Of a stretch of 64,000 nucleotides of DNA, positions 45,465-60,000 are shown one piece after another. The notes beneath the pieces were generated by a model, which ran no database searches, was not told the DNA's origin, and saw nothing but the letters and a program-made list of their open reading frames with translations. Position 1 is the stretch's first letter, and each line of letters opens with the position of its first letter. The position numbers were made by a program, and so were the translations under genes. The DNA comes from Pycnococcus provasolii (Eukaryota; Chlorophyta; Pseudoscourfieldiophyceae; Pseudoscourfieldiales; Pycnococcaceae), in contig OW568864.1 in assembly GCA_938743325.2 (NCBI GenBank), positions 1,116,001 through 1,180,000 of the forward strand, read 5' to 3'.

Positions 45465-46505
45465 TCACGCAAACGCAATCGCAGCGCCGATGAACAGCCG
45501 CCGATGATGCCACCAAAAATAAAAATGGTGGACTTTGAGAGGATTGTCCCTCTCTCTCTCTCTCGCGGCGGCGGCGGCGGCGGCGACGAAGGCGACGGAG
45601 GCGGCGGCGGCGGAGGCGGCGGCGTCGAGGAACGCGCCGAGCCGCAAGGTCTTCTTCTCTGCTTTCCCCGCCTCCGGCGCAGCTGATCCGTGCTTGCTCA
45701 GCAGCGCCTCATAGACTTTCTGAGCGCTCATCTTTCCCACCGTCAGGATGCGACGGGTGATGGTCACGTACTGGCACTGGCGTGTCGTCAGAGCGGCTAC
45801 CACCTTCCCACCAAAGAGTGCTCTGTGCCTCGTCTCCGCGTTCACTCGGTCCTTCTCTAGCTGCTCCAGCGTCGAGGTGGCTGTATCCACCGCCGTCTTG
45901 CCCTCCAGCGCCTTGTTTGCGACGTGCAGGTCCGTGTGCATTCCATCAAGCTCCTGGCTCATCAGGCGGTGTAGCTCCTTCTCCGTCTCCATGCCCTTGA
46001 GCACGTGCTCCGCATATTCAAACGCGCTCAGTGACGGGCACGCGGTCCTGATGCTGGCCTCCAGGTCCTGCTGGAATTGTTTCGGAGTGCTCGTCATCTT
46101 GATCATCATCAGTGTAGACGGCTGTAGGTCTTGACGTGACGTAACGAACTCAGCAGTTGCTTTGGCCATGAACAGCGCCCGCATAGCTTGCGCTGCCTCT
46201 CGTTCCAGCACGCTGGCATCCTCTTTGCTTGGTCTCGGCGTTGCCTGCAGCTTTACCTCCAATTCTTCGAAAGACTTCAAGAATTCCGGCGAGGTACGGT
46301 AACCGTGCCACCAATTAGCTGCTACGCTGCCAGTCTTGAGGAATGATTCCACCGCATGCACGAACGTCTGCGGTCTGCGTATCACTGAATACGAGTCGCA
46401 CCGCTGGTTGAAAGCCTTGAGCTTCCCGTCCGCCTCGTCGTAGCCTTCATTACCGTTGAGTGCTTCCTGAATTCGCTTGGAAGAGGAGCTCTCTTCTTCG
46501 TCCAT
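45465..46505 (-). CDS. Stand-alone Gag-like protein next to the retrotransposon LTR
   Basis: 346 residues from MDEEESSSSKRIQEAL. Helical throughout; the central part (AEFVTSRQDLQPSTLMMIKM) parallels the Gag of the neighbouring retrotransposon (KEFVTKRNKLESSQLHTIKV) at the equivalent position, with similar flanking helices (LKSFEELEVKL, AEHVLKGMETEKELHRLMSQ). It has no zinc finger, protease or pol, and its C-terminus runs into a GAGA/GGC low-complexity region (45540-45620), so the last 50 residues may not be authentic. It starts about 200 bp from the LTR at 46711. It could be a remnant of a related element, a non-autonomous partner or a co-opted gene. The reading frame is intact. Confidence 0.55.
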   Translation of the reverse strand: MDEEESSSSKRIQEALNGNEGYDEADGKLKAFNQRCDSYSVIRRPQTFVHAVESFLKTGSVAANWWHGYRTSPEFLKSFEELEVKLQATPRPSKEDASVLEREAAQAMRALFMAKATAEFVTSRQDLQPSTLMMIKMTSTPKQFQQDLEASIRTACPSLSAFEYAEHVLKGMETEKELHRLMSQELDGMHTDLHVANKALEGKTAVDTATSTLEQLEKDRVNAETRHRALFGGKVVAALTTRQCQYVTITRRILTVGKMSAQKVYEALLSKHGSAAPEAGKAEKKTLRLGAFLDAAASAAAASVAFVAAAAAAARERERDNPLKVHHFYFWWHHRRLFIGAAIAFA

Positions 46506-46710
46506 ATCGTCCGTTGTGCAGCAAATTCCCGTGCCCGTTGCAGTTGTAGGTCCAGGTGTGCTTGCGCTAGCCCTCGTTGCCCACCGCGACGGCCGAATTA
46601 ACAGTGCCCTGGGTATGAAGTTCGGGCCGAAAGCGGTTGGTGACACGAGCGGTGACTCTCCTCCTGTGTCACGACGCACTACCGCGTCACAGCGTCACCT
46701 TCGACCAAAA

Positions 46711-47359
46711 TGAAATGTAACTAACTCACGTCACACACTACTCACAATCTCCCTCCACACCACCAGCGCCACCACCACCACCCCAGGCGAGCCCACGAGG
46801 CTCGACCAGGCGACAACGGACAACCCTAGTTGTTTTACCACCCTAACTCCACAAGGCCGGAGCCAAGTTACACTTAAAACTCTCTCTCTCTCTCTCTCTT
46901 CACCGGTCAACAAGCGTACGCCACTCGTGCGTACACAAAAACGCGTTGACAATGGCAGCAGGGAAACCCATACAACCACAGCCCACCACACACAACCGTG
47001 GGGCCACCTTGCAATAGGCAACCTCCACACGGGGCCGCCTTGCAACGGGCAACCTCCACTCGGGGCACCTCACCTGTCCACATCACGTGACCTTGCAAGT
47101 CCCCATGAACAGCGGACAAAAATGACATTAATGTCATTTTTGTCCGCACTTCACGGGGACCAAGAAAATCCACATTAATGTGGATTTTCTTGCTGATACG
47201 TCATCCTGATAACGTATCCCCGAATCATCCACACTCACCCATATTTATCTTGAGGGGGCCCAAACCCTCACCAACTCTAGAAGGTTGGAGGCACTTATTC
47301 CACACACACACCACTCACCACCGCACCACTGCGCCACCACACCGCCATGCCGCGCGACA
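46711..47359 (-). repeat. 3' LTR (649 bp)
   Basis: Identical by eye to 57626-58274 (constant offset 10,915). It contains two perfect palindromes, a TATAAATA-like AGATAAATATGGG on the minus strand, a CCCCGAAT motif and a (CT)n tract. Short open frames in it are not conserved genes. Confidence 0.95.
47112..47192. repeat. Twin perfect palindromes in the LTR
   Basis: Positions 47112-47147 are a 36-bp perfect palindrome and 47161-47192 a 32-bp perfect palindrome. Both are centred on CATTAATG, with different arms (GCGGACAAAAATGA and CAAGAAAATCCA). The same pair is at 58027-58062 and 58076-58107. Confidence 0.95.
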
Positions 47360-47506
47360 GCTGTCACGACGCACTACCGCGTCACAGCGTCACCTTCGAC
47401 CCCACCGCCTCGGTTGTGATATCGCTGGAAATGTCACACCGTATCAGCGCACAACCGAAACCAACTCAGGGTATGGCCACGGTACGCATTCACCACACAC
47501 ATTTGT

Positions 47507-50500
47507 TCAAATCACTAACGCCATTGGCGCTTCTGGGTCGGCCACGAACAGCCACCCCACTTCACTAGACTCTCGTCTCACTAATTGTTTGCGTATAGCC
47601 ACGGAGGCAAATATACACAACCACGCACATTGCCGCTGACGGCCAACTCTAGGCAAGTTGCTAATCACTGCAACCCTGCCTTCGTCCATCCATTGTTTCA
47701 GCATACTTGCTCGAGCTCGGGGCATCGTAGCATAATAGCTGTACGACACATGTACACACACCACCTTGGCAGTTGCCTTTACCATGAGTGGCACCACCAA
47801 ATCTAAGCAGTCGAACCAAGGGCTACATACTACTGCCTCGACACCTTGTTTCGCCATGCGTTGCCAAAATACCGGCTGACACGCATTCATACACAACTCT
47901 GCGCCATGCCCAGGGTTCAAGTCATTGCTAACTACGCGTACTTCTTGCCCGCTGAGGTATGAAGCCACCGCTTTGGTACCCGCGAACGGATCCAACACCC
48001 ACTCAAATTTATCAAGCGCCACATGCTCCCACAGCTGTTCGAGTGCACCGGGCACTGTCGTGACGCAAGGCAACGCTCGTGGCGTCTGCATAAGCGCCAC
48101 CGCCCTCGCCATATTGCTTACCGTGCGCGCTGAGCATCCGGGCTGGAGCTCTTGCATCAGTTTCGCCAACACCACATTGTCCATCAAAGGTAAGACCTCT
48201 TTGGACTTGCACAACATTGTCTCGTTCTTCCAAGCCAATGCAGCTGCCACGTGACTACCACGCGTGGACCTGAGTCTTGTCACACGAGTATCTTGTTTCA
48301 CATTATCACTTTTATCTTTGTTCACTTCACCACTCGATGGAAGCAAGTACTTGCGTACTTCTGCCTCGTACATCGTTTCTTCATCGCCATCGTCGTACCT
48401 GATCCGGAATCGGTACGGCGGGTGCGCAGTAGCCTCGAAGAGCACCGTGCCTTCATGTTGCTCCTTCACACCAGGTCCCACGTCAAACTCCTTCATGACG
48501 CGTCGCCCATGCAGCGCCAAACCTCGTTCATCTCGCAATCTCGCGGTCACAGTTGGAGGTGGACGATACGCCCCGTCACCAAACGTGCTTGGGGATGGTT
48601 GATACCCCAGCATTGAGCATGCCTCGCACACCCACGTGGTCTGTGGTACGACCTTAAGTGGTGGCGTTACACACCAGATGTGCCACGCCTTCCCACACCC
48701 GTCACACACAATCATCTTGCTGTGTTCTCGGTCACCGTTGCACCCTTGGCACCGCCACGCAGCCTTGAGTAGCGTGCCGTCAACGGTCCCGTCCAGGTCA
48801 GGCAAATGGCACGGCGCCATGTTTACCGCCTGCTCCACGATGGTTGCGCCATCGCGACCTTCCAACACAAACACATCCTCGCTTCGTGCCTCCTTGACTC
48901 GGAGCACCGTCCTCATTACCTTCGCCTCCAAACCTTTCGCATGAGCTCGCGCCACATAAACGAAATCACCCACCTCAAACTTCCTGAGCTTACGCCAGTA
49001 CGTACCATCGCGAAGCTGAGCGTATCGTAACGAATCTCGGTGTTGCGCCACCTTCAAATTCGAATCGATGGTAGCCACCATCTTCTTCATGGCCACCGCA
49101 CGCTTAAGCAAGCTGACGGCGGTTGCCTCAGTCGCTCGTTTCGCATCATCTTCCTCCACTCCTTCATAGACTAACTCGTCAGCGAAGGCACCGCCGTGAC
49201 CAATGGCCAACTGAGGCTCCGTGCCGTACACTACTTCGAACGGGCTCATACCCGATGACGCTTGCTTACTGCAGCGGTATCCGAGCACCACCCACATCAA
49301 CAAGACGTCCCAGTCGCGGTGTTCTTCCGCGTCTACAGTAAGACGTTTCAAAGACTCCTTAACCGTCTGTACCACACGCTCCACTTGGCCATTGGCCTGA
49401 GGATGGTTGCGTGACGTTGTCCGGTGGTCGATGCACGCCTCCCTTAACAATTCCGCAAACTCTCCTCCCACGAACTCTTGTCCGTTGTCCGACGTCACTA
49501 CGGCTGGAGCACCGTATCGACTCAAGACATGTTGCAAGAACGCATACGCAACATTAGAGGACGTCCTGTCGGGAGTGGGGACCGCGACAAGTTCTTTGCT
49601 GAATGCATCAATGAAGATTAAGATGTATTTGTTACCACGTTCAGTCTCATTGAACGGGCCAGCAAAATCAACATGCCACCTGAAGAACAATCCTTGAATT
49701 GGCAAGGATTGTAACTCCGTTCCACCTGCCTTGCGGTTCGGCCGTGCTTTCGCCAAATCGCAAGCCGCACACTTCCCAACCACTGTAGCCACTTGGCGAT
49801 ACATGCCGGGCCACCAATAATGTAGCTTGACCAGTTCGTACGTACGCCGTACTCCGAAGTGGCCTGTCTTACGGTGGTACAAGTCAATGACTTCTTCACG
49901 CTTGCCTGGCGGAGGCACTTCTCTTGGTCTCCGGCCGTCAGGCACAAACAAGAGCACCATCTCGCCGTCTCGTTGTTTAGTGGCATACGACCTCATGCGC
50001 CTTGCCACTCGGCTGCGCTTTGCGACGTCGGTAACCGCTCCAGCGCCACCTTCACGCATGGCTAGCATGAGTTCCTCATCCTCCCACGGGTCTGCGCTTG
50101 CAGCCGTGGAGGTGACTTCACTTGCTATTGCCGCCGCAACCTCAGCGTTGTTTTCTTCACGCCTTGGCACGAAGACACGGTACTCCGTGCCCGTCTCATA
50201 TTGTTGCACCAAGAGTTCTGAGCCACCATCTATGGCATGGACGAACCTATCCCTCAACTCTTTGGGCCAACCTGGTAACCTTGTTGTGGTTACAGGTTGT
50301 TGACTCAACTTGCGCTTCTCGTGCTGGCATACGGCCGCAATTGCCTTGCCTTCCTCATCTTGCACTCGACAGCGCGCCCATCGAGCCATGCACTTTCGAG
50401 CTGCGGAAACCTCCGGGTTGGCGTCCACGTAGCCCAATCCCTTCTTGTCCAGCCGCTCCTTAACTCCTTCTTGGCCGCTAGGCATTGGGTTCCTCAGACA

Positions 50501-53500
50501 CCAATCCCAATTGCAGACTAAAGACGCCACCGCCGCTCCGTTGGGACGATTGCCCTGCCACGGCATGACGTTGCGTGACCACAATCTTGCAGCCGCACCA
50601 ACTTGCTGTGCTTCGGTGCCGGTGCTCCTCTCCCATTCATCTCTCGCTTCGCTGACCTCGCGCGCGAGCTGCAACATGTCTCGCATGCTAATACCGTCAG
50701 CCACGTTGCGCGCAACCGCGGCCATCTGCCTGGCCGTCGCGTCACCGTTCCTCATGGAGGGTTCTTGGTGTGCGGACGTGCCTCGCTCTGCCACGCTTGT
50801 CGTCGCGTCACCTTCGTCGGCTAAGACAGCCGCAAGGAGGTCCATGCGTTCAACGTTGGTGATTACAGGGCGCCGGTTACAGCTCTCAATCCAACCATCC
50901 CACCAATTCCCTCTCGCATGTCGGGCATGCGTCTCGATTACCACTGCGGCGTTGGCGCTCGCTATTCGCTTCCACCACCGAGTGTCTGCGTCGAGCTCCG
51001 CCTCGTCCGCCATCAAACCAGCCACCACCACTTCGGCGCCACAGGCCACCGCCCGTGTGCGCTCAACGAGTTCCGTGACGTTGGCGTTATTGTCTTGCCA
51101 CGCTTGGCACCACAGTTGCTCGACGCCCGAATCAGTGCGTTGCGCCACCCATCCAGGTGGAAGCCTTGCGCGCACGTACTCGTCACGCATCTGCTCTCTC
51201 AGCTGGTACGTCTCCACAGAAACGCACATGTTCACTTGTAGTCCTGACTGCCACGCGGCGTGAACGCCTCGTCCGCACACGCCCGGTCCTTCAACCACCA
51301 CTACAGGAGAACTCCATATTGCGTTGCCAACATGATCCGTTGACGGCAACAATTCGCCTCGCACGACATGTTTCAGCCGGCGCCTCCACTCCGTCAGCGG
51401 CGTTTCCACCGTCTCATCTTCTACGGCGTCATTGACCATAGCACACACTTCGTGGCTAACCTTGTCAGCGGGGCTCACGCACACGCTCGCGCGCATGGTG
51501 ACCCTGAGCGGTGCTACTGCACCATAAGGTTCGCCCTTAATTAACGCGCCTGCCACTGCGCGCCCCACCTCTTCACCCTTTCCGTTCCCTACCGTACTCG
51601 CCATGTCCGGACTGGGATTGGGAATTGTGACGGGGACTCCGTCAAGATTGAGGTCACTTTGAGTTGCCTTGTTACCTGGGTTACGAGCAACTGCTGTGTA
51701 CCACTCGGCATACTCTTCAGGCGTCGCAAGCCTCACTTGTCCGCCCAGGTTGCGTTCCTCCCCGTCATCCAACCTTGCTCCAGAGTTATCTTCCTCCGTT
51801 GCCAAGGGGAATCGCGAGGGCACGTCGGCATTAGCATGCGACGCTCCAGCCCTGTGAATGACCACCAAGTCATATTGTTCCACCATTAATGCCCACCTCG
51901 TGTGGTGTGCATTTTTCTTCTGAGAGGAGTCCATCAACCAAACTAAAGGTTGGTGGTCCGTGATCAACTTGATATGCCTTCCCCAGATGTAGGGGTGAAA
52001 CGTACGTAACGCCCACGTCACAGCGAGCAATTCGCCATAATACGATGGATACTTAGCTTCATGTACGTTTAGGCTACGCGAGATACACGCGCACAGCCTC
52101 TCCTTCCCGTCTGGTCCCACTTGAGCTAGCACGGCAGCTATGCCGTACGAACTAAAGTCGGTATAGACGTGCGTCTCCAGCTCATCGTCGAAGTGGAACA
52201 ACCCTACGCCGGGCGTTGCCAACTTCTCTTTCAACTCATCCAACTGGGCTTGGTGCTCGTCGGTCCACGCACCCTTCACCCATACTGCACCTTTCTTGAG
52301 CAATGGTCTCATTCCTTCAATCATTGCTGACGCATTAGGGATGAAAGACCGGTAGTAGGAGATTAGGCCGAGCTGTGACCTTAAGTCACTGGCACTCTCT
52401 GGCCTCCCCATACCTATAATCGCCTTGACCTTGGCCTCATCTGGTGTAACGCCGTTCCCACCCACCTTGTGTCCTAGGAACTCCACAGTCGCCAACCCGA
52501 ACTTACTCTTGTCTGGGTGTAACCTCAAACCTGTGGTGTTACACATGGCGAACATACGCTCAAGTGCCTTCAAATGGTCACTCCACTCATCGTGGTGTAC
52601 ACACAGGTCATCTATGTAGCAGGTGGTTTCGTTGTCCAATCCCGCCACCGCCAGTTCTCGGTCCATTACCGTTTGGAACTTGGCAGCCGCGTTGACGTAA
52701 CCGAACGTCATCCGCTCCCATACATAGATTTTGCCCTTCCACCAAAACTGGGTAAGGTGTATGCTACCGGGGTCCATGGGAACCTGGTTGAAACCCTTCC
52801 GCAGGTCCACCGCGGTGATGTACTTCGCCGCTGAAAGGCGCGCGATCTGGTCATCGGCACGGTGCATACCCCGCCTGTCCCGTATGGTAATGGCGTTCAC
52901 ACCCCTCGAGTCCGCACACACCCTACAATCCGTCCACTCTCCGGTCTTCGCATCTTTCTTAGCTGCGACCGTGGTGTTCATTGCGTGGAGCCCGTACTGG
53001 TGCTCTCCCAACTTATATTCCCGAATGTACCCCGCGTCCTGAAACGCTTGGTACCATTCATCCACCTTCTCTTGTTCCGCCTTGTTCAACCTCCTCTGGC
53101 GTTGGCGGGTTTCAACTGACTTGTCCGTTACATCTATCTTGAACGGTCCGTCAACCCCACTGTATCCCGGAATGTCGTCATTGCTCCACGCAAACGCTCC
53201 TTTATTCCTGTTCAACAGTTCCAACAATTCCACCTTTTGCTCCTCAGTCAATCGTGACGCAACCATCCATCCGTCTCGTGTCTCCACGCTCTCTTCCAGC
53301 CCGACGTCACCGTATGGCGTCATTGCGTCTATGAGCCGTGCTGGGCGCCTTGGCGCGACTTTTGTCTCGCTCGTCACCGTGCAAACTGCCCACACTTGGC
53401 GCTTGACGTGAGCTCCTCCAACTAGCGTCAGCGCTACCACGGTTGCCAGCCACATCTTGACTTCAAACAACACGAGCCACGCGAGCAGTACGGTTAGCAC

Positions 53501-53923
53501 CGCGCCCGCCATCCACCCTCGCCGTGCCGGGTGCTTGGTATCCACCATTTTCTTCATCCTCCTGGCTTGGGACTTGTTCCACTTGATGCGCCGCGGTGGA
53601 TGCGTCCAGCCATTCCTTCTCGCCTCGTCTTCGAACGTGCCTCCACCTGTACTCTCGGCCCACGTGGTCGCGTCTTCGTTGACGTTACTTGCGGACGTGC
53701 CCGTGCTGGGTGTGGACATTGCCACCGCCAGTACCCACAGCACTCCGAGCCACATTATCCATCTCTTCAAACCATAAACCCTTCGTGTTTTCCCCCCTTC
53801 CCTACTTCCCTCAGCCGATGGCGAGGTCTTTACGCTCGCAGCGCATCCACCAGTAGGCGCGCGAGCTCCTCGTTTCCCGAGCCATCCTGTGAGTTGTGTT
53901 CCGGCTCGTCGACTGCCGTGCAA
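47507..53923 (-). CDS. Retrotransposon ORF2: RT, RNase H, integrase, PHD, Tudor-like and methyltransferase-like domains
   Basis: Up to 2138 codons; the first ATG is at 53755, downstream of the ORF1 stop, so expression probably uses frameshifting or reinitiation across the 53830-53923 overlap. Residues 52-70 and 137-172 are hydrophobic, membrane-like. RT spans about 290-480 (YIDD at 436-439; FLGH with GVTPDEAK following). RNase H spans about 580-705 (VYTDFSSYGIAAVL, ELLAVTWAL, HANADVPSR). An unassigned stretch of about 600 residues follows. Integrase spans about 1345-1530 (HRKTGHFG...CAACDLAK zinc site, then D in WHVDFAGPF, D in TSDNGQEF, E in NGQVERVVQ). A PHD finger lies at about 1720-1770 (CQGC...CDGCGKAWHIWC...CEAC), then a Tudor/Agenet-like segment (RIRYDDGDEE). 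Residues about 1975-2138 look like a SAM methyltransferase (VLDPFAGTKAVASYL, NDLNPG, CSPWFDCLD). Confidence 0.9.
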   Translation of the reverse strand: MHGSRRAGTQLTGWLGKRGARAPTGGCAASVKTSPSAEGSREGGKTRRVYGLKRWIMWLGVLWVLAVAMSTPSTGTSASNVNEDATTWAESTGGGTFEDEARRNGWTHPPRRIKWNKSQARRMKKMVDTKHPARRGWMAGAVLTVLLAWLVLFEVKMWLATVVALTLVGGAHVKRQVWAVCTVTSETKVAPRRPARLIDAMTPYGDVGLEESVETRDGWMVASRLTEEQKVELLELLNRNKGAFAWSNDDIPGYSGVDGPFKIDVTDKSVETRQRQRRLNKAEQEKVDEWYQAFQDAGYIREYKLGEHQYGLHAMNTTVAAKKDAKTGEWTDCRVCADSRGVNAITIRDRRGMHRADDQIARLSAAKYITAVDLRKGFNQVPMDPGSIHLTQFWWKGKIYVWERMTFGYVNAAAKFQTVMDRELAVAGLDNETTCYIDDLCVHHDEWSDHLKALERMFAMCNTTGLRLHPDKSKFGLATVEFLGHKVGGNGVTPDEAKVKAIIGMGRPESASDLRSQLGLISYYRSFIPNASAMIEGMRPLLKKGAVWVKGAWTDEHQAQLDELKEKLATPGVGLFHFDDELETHVYTDFSSYGIAAVLAQVGPDGKERLCACISRSLNVHEAKYPSYYGELLAVTWALRTFHPYIWGRHIKLITDHQPLVWLMDSSQKKNAHHTRWALMVEQYDLVVIHRAGASHANADVPSRFPLATEEDNSGARLDDGEERNLGGQVRLATPEEYAEWYTAVARNPGNKATQSDLNLDGVPVTIPNPSPDMASTVGNGKGEEVGRAVAGALIKGEPYGAVAPLRVTMRASVCVSPADKVSHEVCAMVNDAVEDETVETPLTEWRRRLKHVVRGELLPSTDHVGNAIWSSPVVVVEGPGVCGRGVHAAWQSGLQVNMCVSVETYQLREQMRDEYVRARLPPGWVAQRTDSGVEQLWCQAWQDNNANVTELVERTRAVACGAEVVVAGLMADEAELDADTRWWKRIASANAAVVIETHARHARGNWWDGWIESCNRRPVITNVERMDLLAAVLADEGDATTSVAERGTSAHQEPSMRNGDATARQMAAVARNVADGISMRDMLQLAREVSEARDEWERSTGTEAQQVGAAARLWSRNVMPWQGNRPNGAAVASLVCNWDWCLRNPMPSGQEGVKERLDKKGLGYVDANPEVSAARKCMARWARCRVQDEEGKAIAAVCQHEKRKLSQQPVTTTRLPGWPKELRDRFVHAIDGGSELLVQQYETGTEYRVFVPRREENNAEVAAAIASEVTSTAASADPWEDEELMLAMREGGAGAVTDVAKRSRVARRMRSYATKQRDGEMVLLFVPDGRRPREVPPPGKREEVIDLYHRKTGHFGVRRTYELVKLHYWWPGMYRQVATVVGKCAACDLAKARPNRKAGGTELQSLPIQGLFFRWHVDFAGPFNETERGNKYILIFIDAFSKELVAVPTPDRTSSNVAYAFLQHVLSRYGAPAVVTSDNGQEFVGGEFAELLREACIDHRTTSRNHPQANGQVERVVQTVKESLKRLTVDAEEHRDWDVLLMWVVLGYRCSKQASSGMSPFEVVYGTEPQLAIGHGGAFADELVYEGVEEDDAKRATEATAVSLLKRAVAMKKMVATIDSNLKVAQHRDSLRYAQLRDGTYWRKLRKFEVGDFVYVARAHAKGLEAKVMRTVLRVKEARSEDVFVLEGRDGATIVEQAVNMAPCHLPDLDGTVDGTLLKAAWRCQGCNGDREHSKMIVCDGCGKAWHIWCVTPPLKVVPQTTWVCEACSMLGYQPSPSTFGDGAYRPPPTVTARLRDERGLALHGRRVMKEFDVGPGVKEQHEGTVLFEATAHPPYRFRIRYDDGDEETMYEAEVRKYLLPSSGEVNKDKSDNVKQDTRVTRLRSTRGSHVAAALAWKNETMLCKSKEVLPLMDNVVLAKLMQELQPGCSARTVSNMARAVALMQTPRALPCVTTVPGALEQLWEHVALDKFEWVLDPFAGTKAVASYLSGQEVRVVSNDLNPGHGAELCMNACQPVFWQRMAKQGVEAVVCSPWFDCLDLVVPLMVKATAKVVCVHVSYSYYATMPRARASMLKQWMDEGRVAVISNLPRVGRQRQCAWLCIFASVAIRKQLVRRESSEVGWLFVADPEAPMALVI

Positions 53924-56340
53924 GTTGCGTGGCTGCTGATTCGCACCGGCAACGTCGCCACCCTCGTCGTGCCCAAACCGTCAGGGTTCCAATACATGAC
54001 CCCTTTCGCAGGTACCACGTACGCATTATAGGCGTAGTGGAACAACGTGGGTATGAGGCAATCAAATACCGCATTGTCCTCCGCCACCACCACTGAACAT
54101 GGCATCCAGGTTTCGTTCTCCGTCCCGGGCGCCACTGCACACGTCATGCCCGCCTCGAGTGGTACTTCTTCGCCCTTCCCCTCTCCCATCGCTGTGGTGA
54201 GATCGTGGGACAGAGTGGGTACACCCCGTGGAAGTGCGCCTTCAAGTTTCTTCCACAAACTTGCGGTAATAACCCACACGTTACACCCGGTATCGGACAG
54301 CGGACGTCGCGCCCGTACCGCCGCCTTCCCTAGGCGGAACTCAACCGTGCCCTCAGGGAGACGGTGTGGAGGCACCTTAATTTCGCCCTTGACAATTTGG
54401 CGCACCAATTCTGCAGCCGCCATTACCTTGGCATTCGTCTCCGGCGCCTCCGGTGTCTCTGTGGGTAACTCTTTCGTTGCGAGTGCACCCACTGACGCCT
54501 CATCTACGCCCACCACCTCGCTGTGGAGTTGTAAGCTCACCACTGCACGTACGCCATGCGCACGCACCGCTGCCAATTCCTTCACTATTGGTTGGCTCTG
54601 CGCTGGCTTCTCTCCTCGCGTGAGGAATGATTCAGGTAACGGCTGCGCGTTGACTCGGGAGTCCGCTGCGGCCGCCGTGCTGATCATAGGCTCGTCGTGC
54701 CCACCTGACACGCACACGCTAGCCGTCTTCCTACCTTGCGTGCCACCCTGGTGACCTTGCAAGTCGGCGTCAGCTAACGCCGCGGCAACGGCTGCCGCCA
54801 CCGCCGCTTCTTCGTCCCTCTCAGCCAATGCGGCTGCCACCGCCGCATCGATACGTTGCTTGCGTCCCTCTTCCGCAGACGCCGTGGCGGCAATGCCAGG
54901 CTTGCTTCCGACCGGGACAACCTTGCCCTCAGTGTCGAGCATGAGCCCTCCTGACATAGCTTTGTCCTTGGGAGTGTTACACATGTAACATTGAGTCTTT
55001 GACGCGAAATTCGCTCGGTTGCCTTTGGCTCGGCACCCTATGACTCCACATTCCCAATCACCTGGTCTTGGCACTTGACCTGTGGGCTGAGCACCTCCCC
55101 CTACGCGCCCCGTGGCTGCGTTCGGGTTCCACCTCCCACCTCCGACTGGCGCGGCCACCGCTGCCGTGTCAATTTCTGCCACCGCCGCTACCCTGTTCCG
55201 CCGCGTAGTCTGTGACATGGCGTGCACTTGCTTGTGGACGGAACAATTACCATTGGTGTGCTTGCCCTCTGGATGTAGTTCGCACGTTGCGTTTTCCCAC
55301 GCCGTGTCGCCAAACTTTGGTTTCACGAGCGACTGGAGTTGTTTCACCAATTGGTATGGCGTGATGTTCACCTCCTCGCGACGAGCGCCACCTACGGCAG
55401 CTTCACTTCGGTTGAGCCTGTTCCACTTGATCTGGGCCTGCTTGGAGATGGCCCTTATTAACCCAATGGCTATGCCCTGTCGCGTTGTGAGCCGGCGCGT
55501 ACGTGTCGCCATGGCAAACAGCTCAGGGTGTTCACCTTCCGCCTTAACTCGCCGCGCATTCTCTGTGAGCAAGTCCTGCACCTCCTCTGGTTGGAGTGTT
55601 ACGTCGGACATGTCTGAATGCGCCTCGTCGTGTGTCGAGACGGCCTCCATCCCTTCGGAGCTCTTCACCCACTCCCGGAGGTACTGGTGAAGCTCTGAAT
55701 GCTTAGTGTACGCGTCTACCACGACACGCTGGAGTTGCTCCATGTTGTACTCCGGCGCGACGCGTTCGACCTCCTGCTCCATCAACTTGGCCATGTGTTC
55801 AGGGCGGTCCTTCTTCCCACTCACCTTAATCGTGTGAAGTTGGGAACTCTCTAACTTGTTACGCTTAGTAACAAATTCTTTACGTACGGCGCCGTCCCAT
55901 TTAGTGAACAGCTCCGCCGCCGCTTTCGCCACTGCCTGTCTCTCGCTTCCCGTCTCGGCATCCTTGCTGGCGGCAAGCGCTTTCTTGAGCCAATCGGCGT
56001 CGTGCTGCGTGTCCTGCAGTAGTGTCCACGCCGGCGTGCCTTGAGCCGTGTTCGCCACCAAGAACGTCAACACCGTTTGGTAATTGGCGTTATGCAACTT
56101 CGGTTGATACAACTGTTGGAAGTTGGCCAACCACCTCGCCGCCTCCTCCGATGTCTCGGATCCCGTGAGCGGACTCAGGTGCGACGACCTGCTACCGCTC
56201 GCGTTTGCATCTCCACCGTCGCTCATCGCTGTCGGCTCTTCGGTACCCTCGCCGTCTACGCTTGGTGCCTCGTCAGTGACGTCGCGTCCCTCTTGCTCGT
56301 TGGAGATCTGTCTTTGACGACGTTGTGATCTCGTGAGCAT
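53830..56340 (-). CDS. Retrotransposon ORF1: Gag with RanBP2-type zinc finger and aspartic protease
   Basis: 836 residues from MLTRSQRRQRQ. A helical Gag core (about 70-260; ARWLANFQQLYQPKLHNANY onward) is followed by an Ala/Val-rich linker. A zinc finger of RanBP2 type follows at about 425-460 (GDWECGVIGC...NRANFASKTQCYMC), where most Ty3/Gypsy Gags have CCHC knuckles. The retropepsin core has the catalytic LSDTGCNVWVI near 682, then FDCLIPTLFHY in the flap/second part. ORF1 ends at 53830 and overlaps the ORF2 frame by 94 nt. It supplies capsid and protease for the element. The N-terminus is acidic and Ser-rich. Confidence 0.88.
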   Translation of the reverse strand: MLTRSQRRQRQISNEQEGRDVTDEAPSVDGEGTEEPTAMSDGGDANASGSRSSHLSPLTGSETSEEAARWLANFQQLYQPKLHNANYQTVLTFLVANTAQGTPAWTLLQDTQHDADWLKKALAASKDAETGSERQAVAKAAAELFTKWDGAVRKEFVTKRNKLESSQLHTIKVSGKKDRPEHMAKLMEQEVERVAPEYNMEQLQRVVVDAYTKHSELHQYLREWVKSSEGMEAVSTHDEAHSDMSDVTLQPEEVQDLLTENARRVKAEGEHPELFAMATRTRRLTTRQGIAIGLIRAISKQAQIKWNRLNRSEAAVGGARREEVNITPYQLVKQLQSLVKPKFGDTAWENATCELHPEGKHTNGNCSVHKQVHAMSQTTRRNRVAAVAEIDTAAVAAPVGGGRWNPNAATGRVGGGAQPTGQVPRPGDWECGVIGCRAKGNRANFASKTQCYMCNTPKDKAMSGGLMLDTEGKVVPVGSKPGIAATASAEEGRKQRIDAAVAAALAERDEEAAVAAAVAAALADADLQGHQGGTQGRKTASVCVSGGHDEPMISTAAAADSRVNAQPLPESFLTRGEKPAQSQPIVKELAAVRAHGVRAVVSLQLHSEVVGVDEASVGALATKELPTETPEAPETNAKVMAAAELVRQIVKGEIKVPPHRLPEGTVEFRLGKAAVRARRPLSDTGCNVWVITASLWKKLEGALPRGVPTLSHDLTTAMGEGKGEEVPLEAGMTCAVAPGTENETWMPCSVVVAEDNAVFDCLIPTLFHYAYNAYVVPAKGVMYWNPDGLGTTRVATLPVRISSHATCTAVDEPEHNSQDGSGNEELARLLVDALRA

Positions 56341-56529
56341 GCACTGGGATCCTCCGAGTGTGGGCCGTGATCCTCGCCTGGCGCTGACCTACTATGCGTA
56401 AGCCGCAGCCTTAGGCCGTGGGGAACCTACTTTCTGCCTCCCCAACTGGTGATCTCACACGTGGATCTGAGGATCCCGGGGCCACCTGTCAGTTCCTTTT
56501 TGGAAACCAACTCGGCCCGCTCCCTGTCA

Positions 56530-56633
56530 GGTTTAGGGTTAGGGTTGCGTTCGTAACCCTAACAGAAACCCTAATCAGAGACCCTAACGGTAACCCTAGT
56601 AGCAACCCTAGTCAGAAACCCTGGTCAGAACCT
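56530..56633. repeat. Degenerate telomere-like array with ~12-bp spacing
   Basis: Two TTAGGG units are followed by about six CCCTAA/CCCTAG/CCCTGG units separated by CAGAAA- or GGTAA-type spacers, roughly one per 12 bp. Confidence 0.8.
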
Positions 56634-56997
56634 TACTCAGTTGTCGGGACCTTGTCCCCCTTGTGTAGGTCTTAGGTGTACCCCCTTCCCTGTAGGTCTT
56701 ATGCTCAGGACCAACTGTGGATCCCCTCGTTACAAGCAAACGACAAAGGGTTTTCCACCCTTTTCTCAGTTCGGGTTTTGGAACGAGACAAGTGTCTTCA
56801 AGTTCGGGTTTTGGATTTATTCTAACGAGTTGCCTTCTCGGGTTTTATAGTGGAGGAGGCTTTGATAAAAGCCCCCGAGCCCGTTTTTTAACGAGGTTGG
56901 TTCGCCCACTTCCTCAGGGACCCCAACTAATTTATACACTAATTTATACGCGCGTGCGCGCCAACTGCTGACTGCTGTCGTTGTGGTCGTGTGGGAT

Positions 56998-56999
<2 letters not shown>

Positions 57000-57029
<30 letters not shown>

Positions 57030-57104
57030 GATCGTTGTCCCTTTGGGATTCCTCTCCTGCTGCTGCTGCTGCTGCTGCTGCGATCGTGGTCCCTTTGGGA
57101 TTCC

Positions 57105-57148
<44 letters not shown>

Positions 57149-57278
57149 GATCGTGGTCCCTTTGGGATTCCTCTCCTGCTGCTGCTGCTGCTGCTGCGAT
57201 CGTTGTCCCTTTGGGATTCCTCTCCTGCTGCTGCTGCTGCTGCTGCTGCGGTCGTGGTCCGGTCCCTTTGGGATCCTC

Positions 57279-57309
<31 letters not shown>

Positions 57310-57425
57310 GATCGTTGTCCCTTTGGGATTCCTCTCCTGCTGCTGCTGCTGCTGCTGCGATCGTTGTCCCTTTGGGATTCCTCTCCTGCTGCTGCTGCTG
57401 CGATCGTGGTCCCTTTGGGATCCTC

Positions 57426-57456
<31 letters not shown>

Positions 57457-57605
57457 GATCGTTGTCCCTTTGGGATTCCTCTCCTGCTGCTGCTGCTGCT
57501 GCTGCGATCGTTGTCCCTTTGGGATTCCTCTCCTGCTGCTGCTGCTGCGGTCGTGGTCCGGTCCCTTTGGGATCCTCCTCCTCTCCTGCTGCTGCTGCGG
57601 TCGTT
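57000..57605. repeat. Composite tandem array of (CTG)n plus a fixed spacer
   Basis: Eleven to twelve units, each a (CTG)4-12 tract followed by CGATCGTTGTCCCTTTGGGA (or a CGGTCGTGGTCC variant) and TTCCTCTC. Unit length varies from about 40 to 65 bp with CTG number. All three forward frames stay open across it because of the repeat, which is not evidence for a gene. Confidence 0.95.
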
Positions 57606-57625
57606 GTCCGCGTTTTTGTGTAAAA

Positions 57626-58274
57626 TGAAATGTAACTAACTCACGTCACACACTACTCACAATCTCCCTCCACACCACCAGCGCCACCACCACCACCCCA
57701 GGCGAGCCCACGAGGCTCGACCAGGCGACAACGGACAACCCTAGTTGTTTTACCACCCTAACTCCACAAGGCCGGAGCCAAGTTACACTTAAAACTCTCT
57801 CTCTCTCTCTCTCTTCACCGGTCAACAAGCGTACGCCACTCGTGCGTACACAAAAACGCGTTGACAATGGCAGCAGGGAAACCCATACAACCACAGCCCA
57901 CCACACACAACCGTGGGGCCACCTTGCAATAGGCAACCTCCACACGGGGCCGCCTTGCAACGGGCAACCTCCACTCGGGGCACCTCACCTGTCCACATCA
58001 CGTGACCTTGCAAGTCCCCATGAACAGCGGACAAAAATGACATTAATGTCATTTTTGTCCGCACTTCACGGGGACCAAGAAAATCCACATTAATGTGGAT
58101 TTTCTTGCTGATACGTCATCCTGATAACGTATCCCCGAATCATCCACACTCACCCATATTTATCTTGAGGGGGCCCAAACCCTCACCAACTCTAGAAGGT
58201 TGGAGGCACTTATTCCACACACACACCACTCACCACCGCACCACTGCGCCACCACACCGCCATGCCGCGCGACA
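57626..58274 (-). repeat. 5' LTR (649 bp)
   Basis: Identical by eye to 46711-47359. On the minus strand it begins TGTCGCGCGGC and ends TTACATTTCA. It should contain the element's promoter. Confidence 0.95.
58027..58107. repeat. Twin perfect palindromes, 5' LTR copy
   Basis: 58027-58062 (36 bp) and 58076-58107 (32 bp), identical to the pair in the other LTR. Confidence 0.95.
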
Positions 58275-58842
58275 CCTGCTGCCCTAGTGCTGTTGCTTAC
58301 AATTGGTGTGTGAGGCTCTGACTCGTCGTCGCTCTCTAGCATCAATTAACAGCCAACTGCTGCACTCCTTGCGTCTCTCGGTCCCTTGACGCCAGCTTTC
58401 AAGCTTTTACGCACTAATTAACCACTGATGCCCCAAGTCAATTCACCAATGGAGGACCTGTCCCCCTTAACAACTGCAGCTCGCCGGGACTGACAGCTGT
58501 GACTCTCGGGTTTGAATAGTAAAGAAAACGCTGTCCAAACGTTACTGTGACTTACTACCAACCACTACTTGACTCTCCTCGGCTTATACGTTAAGAAACA
58601 CACACACACTCCTGGAACGTGCACCTTAAGCACGTAAAAGCTTGCCCGAGTGAAGAGCACCGGTGTAACCGGGCCTCCCCCTCTTACCTCAGCCCACTCT
58701 TGGCACCGGGACCTTCCCCCGGGGCCACCTTATTCCTAAGTCCTAACTGTCTCTTCTCCTCCCCTTCTGACGCGTTGCCGCCACCTCCTTCCATCGGCCG
58801 CGCAGCGCCTCTTTCTCTTAACCCCCAAACACATCAAACACA
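58275..58842. other. Non-coding flank beyond the 5' LTR
   Basis: 568 bp with no recognised gene or repeat; the sequence adjoining the LTR (CCTGCTGCCC) does not match the flank of the other LTR. Confidence 0.5.
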
Positions 58843-59725: not shown

Positions 59726-60000
59726 TGAGTCTCCCCACCTCCATGGCGAGCGCGCGCTGCGACGCGGCGTCGAGCAGGAGTGCAGGAGCAGGTTCGTCGT
59801 CCATGAAGTTTTCCTTTCCATCTTCCTGAGGGCGTGAGTGTTCGTCGTGTGCAGCTGGTCGAGTTTTTGCGTGAGTCTCCCCACCTCCATGGCGAGCGCG
59901 CGCTGCGACGCGGCGTCGAGCAGGAGTGCAGGAGCAGGTTCGTCGTCCATGAAGTTTTCCTTTCCATCTTCCTGAGGGCGTGAGGAGTCGTCGTGTGGAG
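59726..60000. repeat. 146-bp tandem duplication in the pseudogene
   Basis: The unit starting TGAGTCTCCCCACCTCCATG at 59726 restarts at 59872. The copies are nearly identical over about 115 bp, then diverge after the CGTCGTGTG segment. Confidence 0.9.

Follow-up and report, generated by a model that had tools for sequence, protein, structure and literature searches.

Why should a retroelement with a complete DDE integrase carry, in the same reading frame, a pair of putative chromatin-reading modules and a putative DNA-modifying enzyme, and end in split repeats? The question is raised by a 64,000-nucleotide stretch of chromosome 4 of the marine green alga Pycnococcus provasolii (bases 1116001-1180000 of contig 4, hereafter the window; the genome comprises 32.33 Mb in 46 contigs), in which an 11.6-kb Ty3/Gypsy-type element occupies positions 46667-58274. 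Positions are given as those of the window, and all features of the element lie on its minus strand. The evidence assembled below indicates that this is a split-repeat Gypsy element equipped with a lineage-restricted methyltransferase, probably of the N6-adenine type, and a putative histone-reader pair.

Examination of the Pol open frame, which runs from stop to stop over 2157 amino acids (47507-53980), revealed a single continuous order of reverse transcriptase, RNase H, H2C2 domain, DDE integrase, PHD finger, Tudor-like barrel and methyltransferase fold. Matches above the Pfam cut-offs were obtained for RVT_1 (residues 371-506, 52463-52870, with YIDD at residue 455), two RNase H models (Ty3/Gypsy type, residues 599-703, 51872-52186), the zinc-binding H2C2 domain of the integrase (residues 1356-1413, 49742-49915), the integrase core rve (residues 1434-1527, 49400-49681) and the PHD finger. 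The integrase triad D1438, D1498 and E1534, the last lying just past the rve match, is of the DD35E type, 35 residues separating D1498 from E1534; the integrase is thus intact upstream of the tail, and the frame continues into the tail, as the original prediction had it. The reverse transcriptase, RNase H, H2C2 and DDE integrase are those of Ty3/Gypsy elements, Ty3 being the nearest solved structure for both the reverse transcriptase (E 7e-43) and the integrase (E 1.7e-24).

Chromoviruses carry an additional chromatin-reading part, a chromodomain, behind the integrase. Here a Pfam search up to E 1 detected no chromodomain, and the place behind the integrase is taken instead by a C4HC3 PHD finger (residues 1744-1791, 48608-48751), which opens with CQGC at residue 1744 and matches PF00628 at E 1.5e-8 (34.9 bits, the cut-off being 24), followed by a Tudor-like barrel (residues ~1812-1883, 48332-48547) with the signature PPYRF..RYDDGDEE..YEAEVR. 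The PHD finger proposed earlier is therefore confirmed, and the Tudor/Agenet-like segment is retained on weaker evidence, RIRYDDGDEE standing at residue 1859 and the Pfam PTM/DIR17 Tudor model matching at E 0.0075, below its cut-off. From Ty3/Gypsy elements and chromoviruses at large, the element thus differs by its PHD and Tudor-like modules in place of a chromodomain, by its methyltransferase fold and by split repeats in place of plain long terminal repeats (LTRs).

The C-terminal domain (residues ~1969-2137, 47570-48076) has the features of a class I methyltransferase. Motif I (VLDPFAGTK, residue 1995, 47972-47998), motif II (NDLNPG, residue 2019, 47909-47926) and motif IV (SPWF, 47813-47824, within CSPWFDC at residue 2052) stand where they had been predicted, and the AlphaFold2 model of this part, with a mean predicted local distance difference test score (pLDDT) of 77, shows a Rossmann-type class I methyltransferase core. 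Comparison of the model with solved structures returned Rossmann methyltransferases, and those nearest by VIA are mostly N6-adenine enzymes (METTL5, Dim1, ErmC', KsgA and M.TaqI), with an identity of 7-16% in the VIA listing. With the METTL5, Dim1-KsgA-Erm and M.TaqI families the modelled domain appears to share the overall fold and a motif IV placed directly after the corresponding strand; it differs from them in the form of that motif, S-[PC]-W-[FY], and in having no separate target-recognition domain in the model. The suggested likeness to C5-cytosine methyltransferases was not borne out, since PF00145 is absent among the tail matches up to E 10 and the nearest VIA structures are mostly of the N6-adenine type. 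MethyltransfD12 (PF02086) matches the full Pol at E 0.042 and the tail alone at E 0.0044, and its gathering score is passed by the relative P0004 of Pseudoscourfieldia marina with 25.4 bits. Other sequence searches gave little: no match of the tail in PDB by sequence, six profile matches in PDB at E 0.046 or worse and none of them a methyltransferase by name, no match in NCBIfam, and three matches in PHROGs at E 0.16 or worse, two of which are labelled DNA methyltransferase.

The tail is neither broken nor absent in the other copies of the family, being complete and open in all 18 near-identical copies, in 15 of which the Pol frame reaches at least 2127 amino acids (it is shorter in three). 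Among the 597 tail codons of eight of these copies (L001-L008, L001 being the window copy), variable codons comprise 44 synonymous and 4 replacement ones, distributed as 22 and 2 in the C-terminal part of the integrase, 4 and 0 in each of the PHD finger, the Tudor region and the linker, and 10 and 2 in the methyltransferase domain. Within the family, purifying selection acts strongly on the tail. The PHD, Tudor-like and methyltransferase parts are found again at about 31-44% identity in divergent loci, and their order is kept in such loci as L009 and L015. Protein searches, which scored only sequences sharing five-residue words and in one case the best 8000 candidates, so that distant relatives could escape, returned 14 relatives; the nine assigned to a species belong to Pseudoscourfieldia marina (six) and Pycnococcus provasolii (three), and one of the 14, P0014, has a 2085-amino acid Pol with a tail identical at 100%. 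None of 27 pattern matches in viral contigs was confirmed as a relative, and no relative was found in phages.

Ten sequences were aligned; they represent the window family, P. marina, fragments from metagenomes and, from the same genome, five loci. The alignment contains 27 invariant columns, including the G of motif I, N-D-x-N-P, FW and S-x-W. Every one of the ten has a motif IV of the form S-[PC]-W-[FY], namely SPWF, SPWY or SCWF. SPWF is therefore not damage confined to a single copy, and the suspicion that it removes catalysis in the window copy finds no support in that form, although catalysis in the domain may have been lost ancestrally.

These observations are consistent with a recently active Ty3/Gypsy-type element to whose integrase C-terminus a PHD-Tudor pair and a base-modifying module have been added. 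PHD fingers of this sort often read the unmodified tail of histone H3. The PHD finger and the Tudor-like barrel would hold the complex of integrase and complementary DNA (cDNA) on nucleosomes, and the C-terminal enzyme would transfer a methyl group from S-adenosylmethionine (SAM) to an exocyclic amino group, most probably N6 of adenine, in the new cDNA or in the DNA of the insertion site. Such a mark could make the new copy resemble permitted or transcribed DNA. That the added modules work in this way, and the ends of the element as described further below, has in our judgement about an even chance.

Several findings weigh against this reading. The motif IV of amino-methyltransferases acting on N6 of adenine or N4 of cytosine is usually [DNS]-P-P-[YFW], unlike the S-[PC]-W-[FY] of the family, whose motif I, DPFAGTK, has in addition lost its final G; either departure could signify an altered substrate or no catalysis at all. 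The window protein reaches 17.2 bits with PF02086, whose gathering score is 22, and the top Foldseek rows mix small-molecule, RNA and DNA methyltransferases, so that the substrate cannot be read from the fold. The PHD-Tudor part is poorly modelled (pLDDT 52), with VIA scores of only ~5-7. Among ten rebuilt insertion sites there is no evident common context, several lying inside long open reading frames (ORFs) and others beside genes (a comparison to which no statistics were applied), and targeting thus finds no support from the insertion sites here. Ratios of nonsynonymous to synonymous rates (dN/dS) between loci, computed for nine pairs, are uneven and range from 0.06 to 0.69, with three pairs saturated. 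The ratios of 0.31 (window and L009), 0.35 (L012 and L014) and 0.06 (L012 and L016) accompany dS values of 1.6-2.4, near saturation, and those of the near-identical pairs L012/L013 (0.69), L009/L011 (0.16) and L014/L020 (0.33) derive from few differences. The value for L012/L013 speaks against strong constraint on that pair, as in dead copies. As these ratios are uneven and mostly near saturation, the case for selection rests on the counts within the family.

The departures in motifs I and IV, with W instead of P at the third position of motif IV and P or C at the second, are also what favours the best placed of the alternatives, namely that the methyltransferase fold has been kept in a catalytically dead state and serves as a SAM sensor, a DNA-binding part or a structural part of the integrase complex. 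We consider it unlikely, since S-x-W-[FY] and NDxNP are themselves conserved throughout the ten-sequence alignment and selection on the tail is strongly purifying, whereas the pocket of a dead enzyme should have drifted. Next comes the proposal, also unlikely, that the domain is an RNA methyltransferase which modifies adenine in the RNA of the element, or the cap guanine in the manner of TGS1, and so protects, exports or packages the genomic RNA. Against it stand the fusion of the domain behind an integrase, a PHD finger and a Tudor-like module, all of which act on chromatin DNA, and the accessible parts of the literature, which describe the methyltransferases of retroelements as DNA methylases, although the function of that of DIRS-type elements is there called unknown (PMC3266345, PMC6681497). 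Very improbable is a single chance acquisition retained only through co-translation with Pol, its likeness to methyltransferases being of no use: the species-assigned relatives, all from Pycnococcus or Pseudoscourfieldia, offer no outside family of known function, but such an origin agrees poorly with the purifying selection between copies and with the PHD-Tudor-methyltransferase order repeated in divergent loci.

The ends of the element, which together with the target-site duplications lay outside the original prediction, do not form a plain LTR pair; they are split direct repeats in the order A1-ORFs-B1-A2-B2, the 5' end consisting of A alone and the 3' end of A followed by B2, with B1 upstream of A2. 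Repeat A1 (653 nt, 57622-58274) is the 5' terminus and runs into ACACAAAAACG..., not into B and without the TGG that starts a tRNA primer site, a primer of the TGG type being the only one looked for. Downstream of Pol, and thus past 47507, follow B1 (40 nt, 47362-47401), which is identical to B2 and joined by GC to A2; A2 (653 nt, 46707-47359), which begins with TGTCGCGCGG; and B2 (40 nt, 46667-46706), which ends in ...GTGACA and forms the 3' terminus of the element at 46667. The sense sequence CAGG flanks the element as a target-site duplication on its 5' (58275-58278) and 3' (46663-46666) sides. Identity of A1 and A2 over 653 nt in the window copy indicates a recent insertion.

The same organization recurs across the genome, where the B1-GC-A2 junction is present 19 times and the reversed pattern not at all, 17 places show A continuing into the leader, and B is found at 44 places, as 19 pairs and six single occurrences. 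A perfect 4-bp duplication outside TG...CA is present in 11 of the 13 copies whose two outer flanks were examined; of the other two, L035 has one mismatch among the four bases and L040 is degraded at its 5' end. The duplication of L043, CCAA, was read from the flank. A solo copy at C4:686121, composed of a shorter A (537 nt) and a 47-nt B, has GGCT on both sides.

B1 and B2 are identical to each other in all 18 copies, and six of these differ from the window B by four different changes, always present in both; it follows that B1 and B2 are both renewed from one template. Of the 14 divergent loci, 11 likewise have a B-A-B pattern behind Pol; their B repeats, 28-52 nt long, are of five different sequences that end in GACA (in L011 the match extends one base beyond GACA). 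The pattern was not found in L018 and L021, and L015 has only unrelated low-complexity repeats there. A mere duplication arisen locally at the 3' side of one master copy, devoid of any role in replication, would also give the same arrangement in every daughter, but it is hardly credible beside the B changes shared by B1 and B2 and the different B sequences of the divergent loci. We favour instead a role of the repeats in replication: B1-GC-A2 would represent two element ends fused together, by which the RNA keeps a template for restoring the missing outer B2, as in PAT/Ngaro elements, and the DDE integrase would then insert the finished TG...CA ends. Pfam up to E 1 detects no tyrosine recombinase in either Gag or Pol, and PF00589 has no match in the whole genome at E 0.001, a search that matched in 14 of 14 prokaryotic control genomes but might overlook a recombinase of very divergent sequence. 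Two further features of repeat A can be recorded. A near-palindromic stretch of ~62 nt (47099-47160 and 58014-58075) matches the other A copy in reverse-complement orientation with 90% identity, and the terminal T-run of A varies among copies L029-L046 and, for instance in L039 (the C40 copy), also between A1 and A2, as if the A2/B2 junction were made imprecisely.

KnitGypsy-Dnmt3 of Klebsormidium nitens is a published precedent for a Gypsy element that combines split repeats with a methyltransferase; for it the available text reports Gypsy domains, a DNA methyltransferase in Pol, DIRS-style repeats and purifying selection on the methyltransferase (PMC5890265), the DIRS layout being given in a figure legend as A-coding-B-A-B (de Mendoza et al. 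2018, PMC5890265). The enzyme of KnitGypsy-Dnmt3 is a cytosine methyltransferase of the Dnmt3 type, whereas the fold described here comes closest, by VIA, to N6-adenine types, and in the Pycnococcus element, unlike KnitGypsy-Dnmt3 as there described, the domain is C-terminal and follows the PHD finger and the Tudor-like barrel; the words 'PHD' and 'chromodomain' are absent from the text of PMC5890265. PAT/DIRS elements likewise have a methyltransferase domain in Pol, and PAT has split direct repeats A1...B1-A2-B2, but according to the available portions of these accounts they use a tyrosine recombinase, lack an integrase and make no target-site duplication (PMC4157794, PMC3266345, PMC6681497), in contrast to the DDE integrase and 4-bp duplications observed here. 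In the accessible part of Morozov et al., DAM is placed in DIRS and DCM in both groups compared (PMC6338049). No report of a PHD-Tudor-methyltransferase tail, or of an enzyme of this type on an element with a DDE integrase, was found in the literature searched, outside which most subscription papers lie.

A second type of methyltransferase may exist among the relatives. P0013 of P. marina (RI054_03g15290) combines an N-terminal piece of Pol, a cytosine-methyltransferase-like stretch (GWPCQDLS...ENV) and the end of the tail methyltransferase, and is possibly a sibling element with such a second enzyme. Its assignment as Dnmt3-like was not upheld and stays a lead only: PF00145 matches at E 0.0029, below the cut-off, hhalign against a host DNMT aligns only 16 columns with a probability of 4.5, and there is no PDB match up to E 0.1. 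In the window element itself, about 650 residues of Pol between RNase H and the integrase (residues ~704-1355, 49916-51871) have no Pfam match above cut-off. Part of this region (residues ~880-1060) looks Rossmann-like by eye, and a degenerate cytosine methyltransferase was considered there, but comparison with P0013 (BLAST and hhalign) and with a host DNMT (hhalign) yielded nothing.

Upstream of Pol, the Gag open frame encodes 852 amino acids (53830-56388), with a protease-like DTG at residue 699. It overlaps Pol by 151 nt in a different frame, which suggests that Gag-Pol may be expressed by a -1 frameshift. The 5' leader contains tandem repeats with a 49-nt period (56984-57603), in which CAG-like triplets are abundant and several frames are open.

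Around the insertion, an older retroelement Gag-like frame (45465-46694) hosts the element, and the rejoined empty site gives one open frame of 422 amino acids. Among the 18 copies, two have 3' flanks resembling other retroelement proteins, as judged with a small custom comparison set. At 59726-60000 of the window there are two 129-nt direct copies with 97% identity, whose starts are 146 nt apart. The host genome also contains cytosine methyltransferase matches (PF00145) at C39:171542-172792 and C4:886188-888008, and MT-A70 adenine methyltransferase matches at C7:61093-61773, C10:1693-2193, C30:94972-95472 and C3:274160-274309, so that both kinds of mark could matter to the element.

The end repeats of this Gypsy element are of a type usual in another class of retroelements, the tyrosine-recombinase PAT/Ngaro elements. 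A-B-A-B ends are common to PAT, with a recombinase and a Dam-like methyltransferase, to KnitGypsy-Dnmt3, with Gypsy domains and a C5 methyltransferase, and to the Pycnococcus element, with a DDE integrase and a methyltransferase of probable N6-adenine type, as far as the available accounts describe the first two. We put forward, tentatively and as a rather unlikely idea, that the methyltransferases of retroelements accompany split-repeat replication whatever the integrating enzyme, that their mark acts on the B-A intermediate by which ends are restored, and that the PHD-Tudor pair couples it to the choice of site. Against such an association, the available text of PMC5890265 describes LINE elements of Symbiodinium that carry a Dnmt without such ends. 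If the idea is true, the methyl mark may label the template or the finished cDNA while the fused B-A junction restores the ends. With the ends of one class, the integrase of another and a histone-reader pair, the element allows the purpose of the methyltransferase to be considered apart from the choice of integrase. PacBio HiFi reads have been published for the same strain, P. provasolii CCAP190/2 (PMC11130579, seen in its accessible part). The small genome of the alga, the recent mobility of the family, its 18 near-identical tails, the measured selection and HiFi reads in which adenine modification might be sought make this element a good test of why retroelements carry DNA-modifying enzymes.
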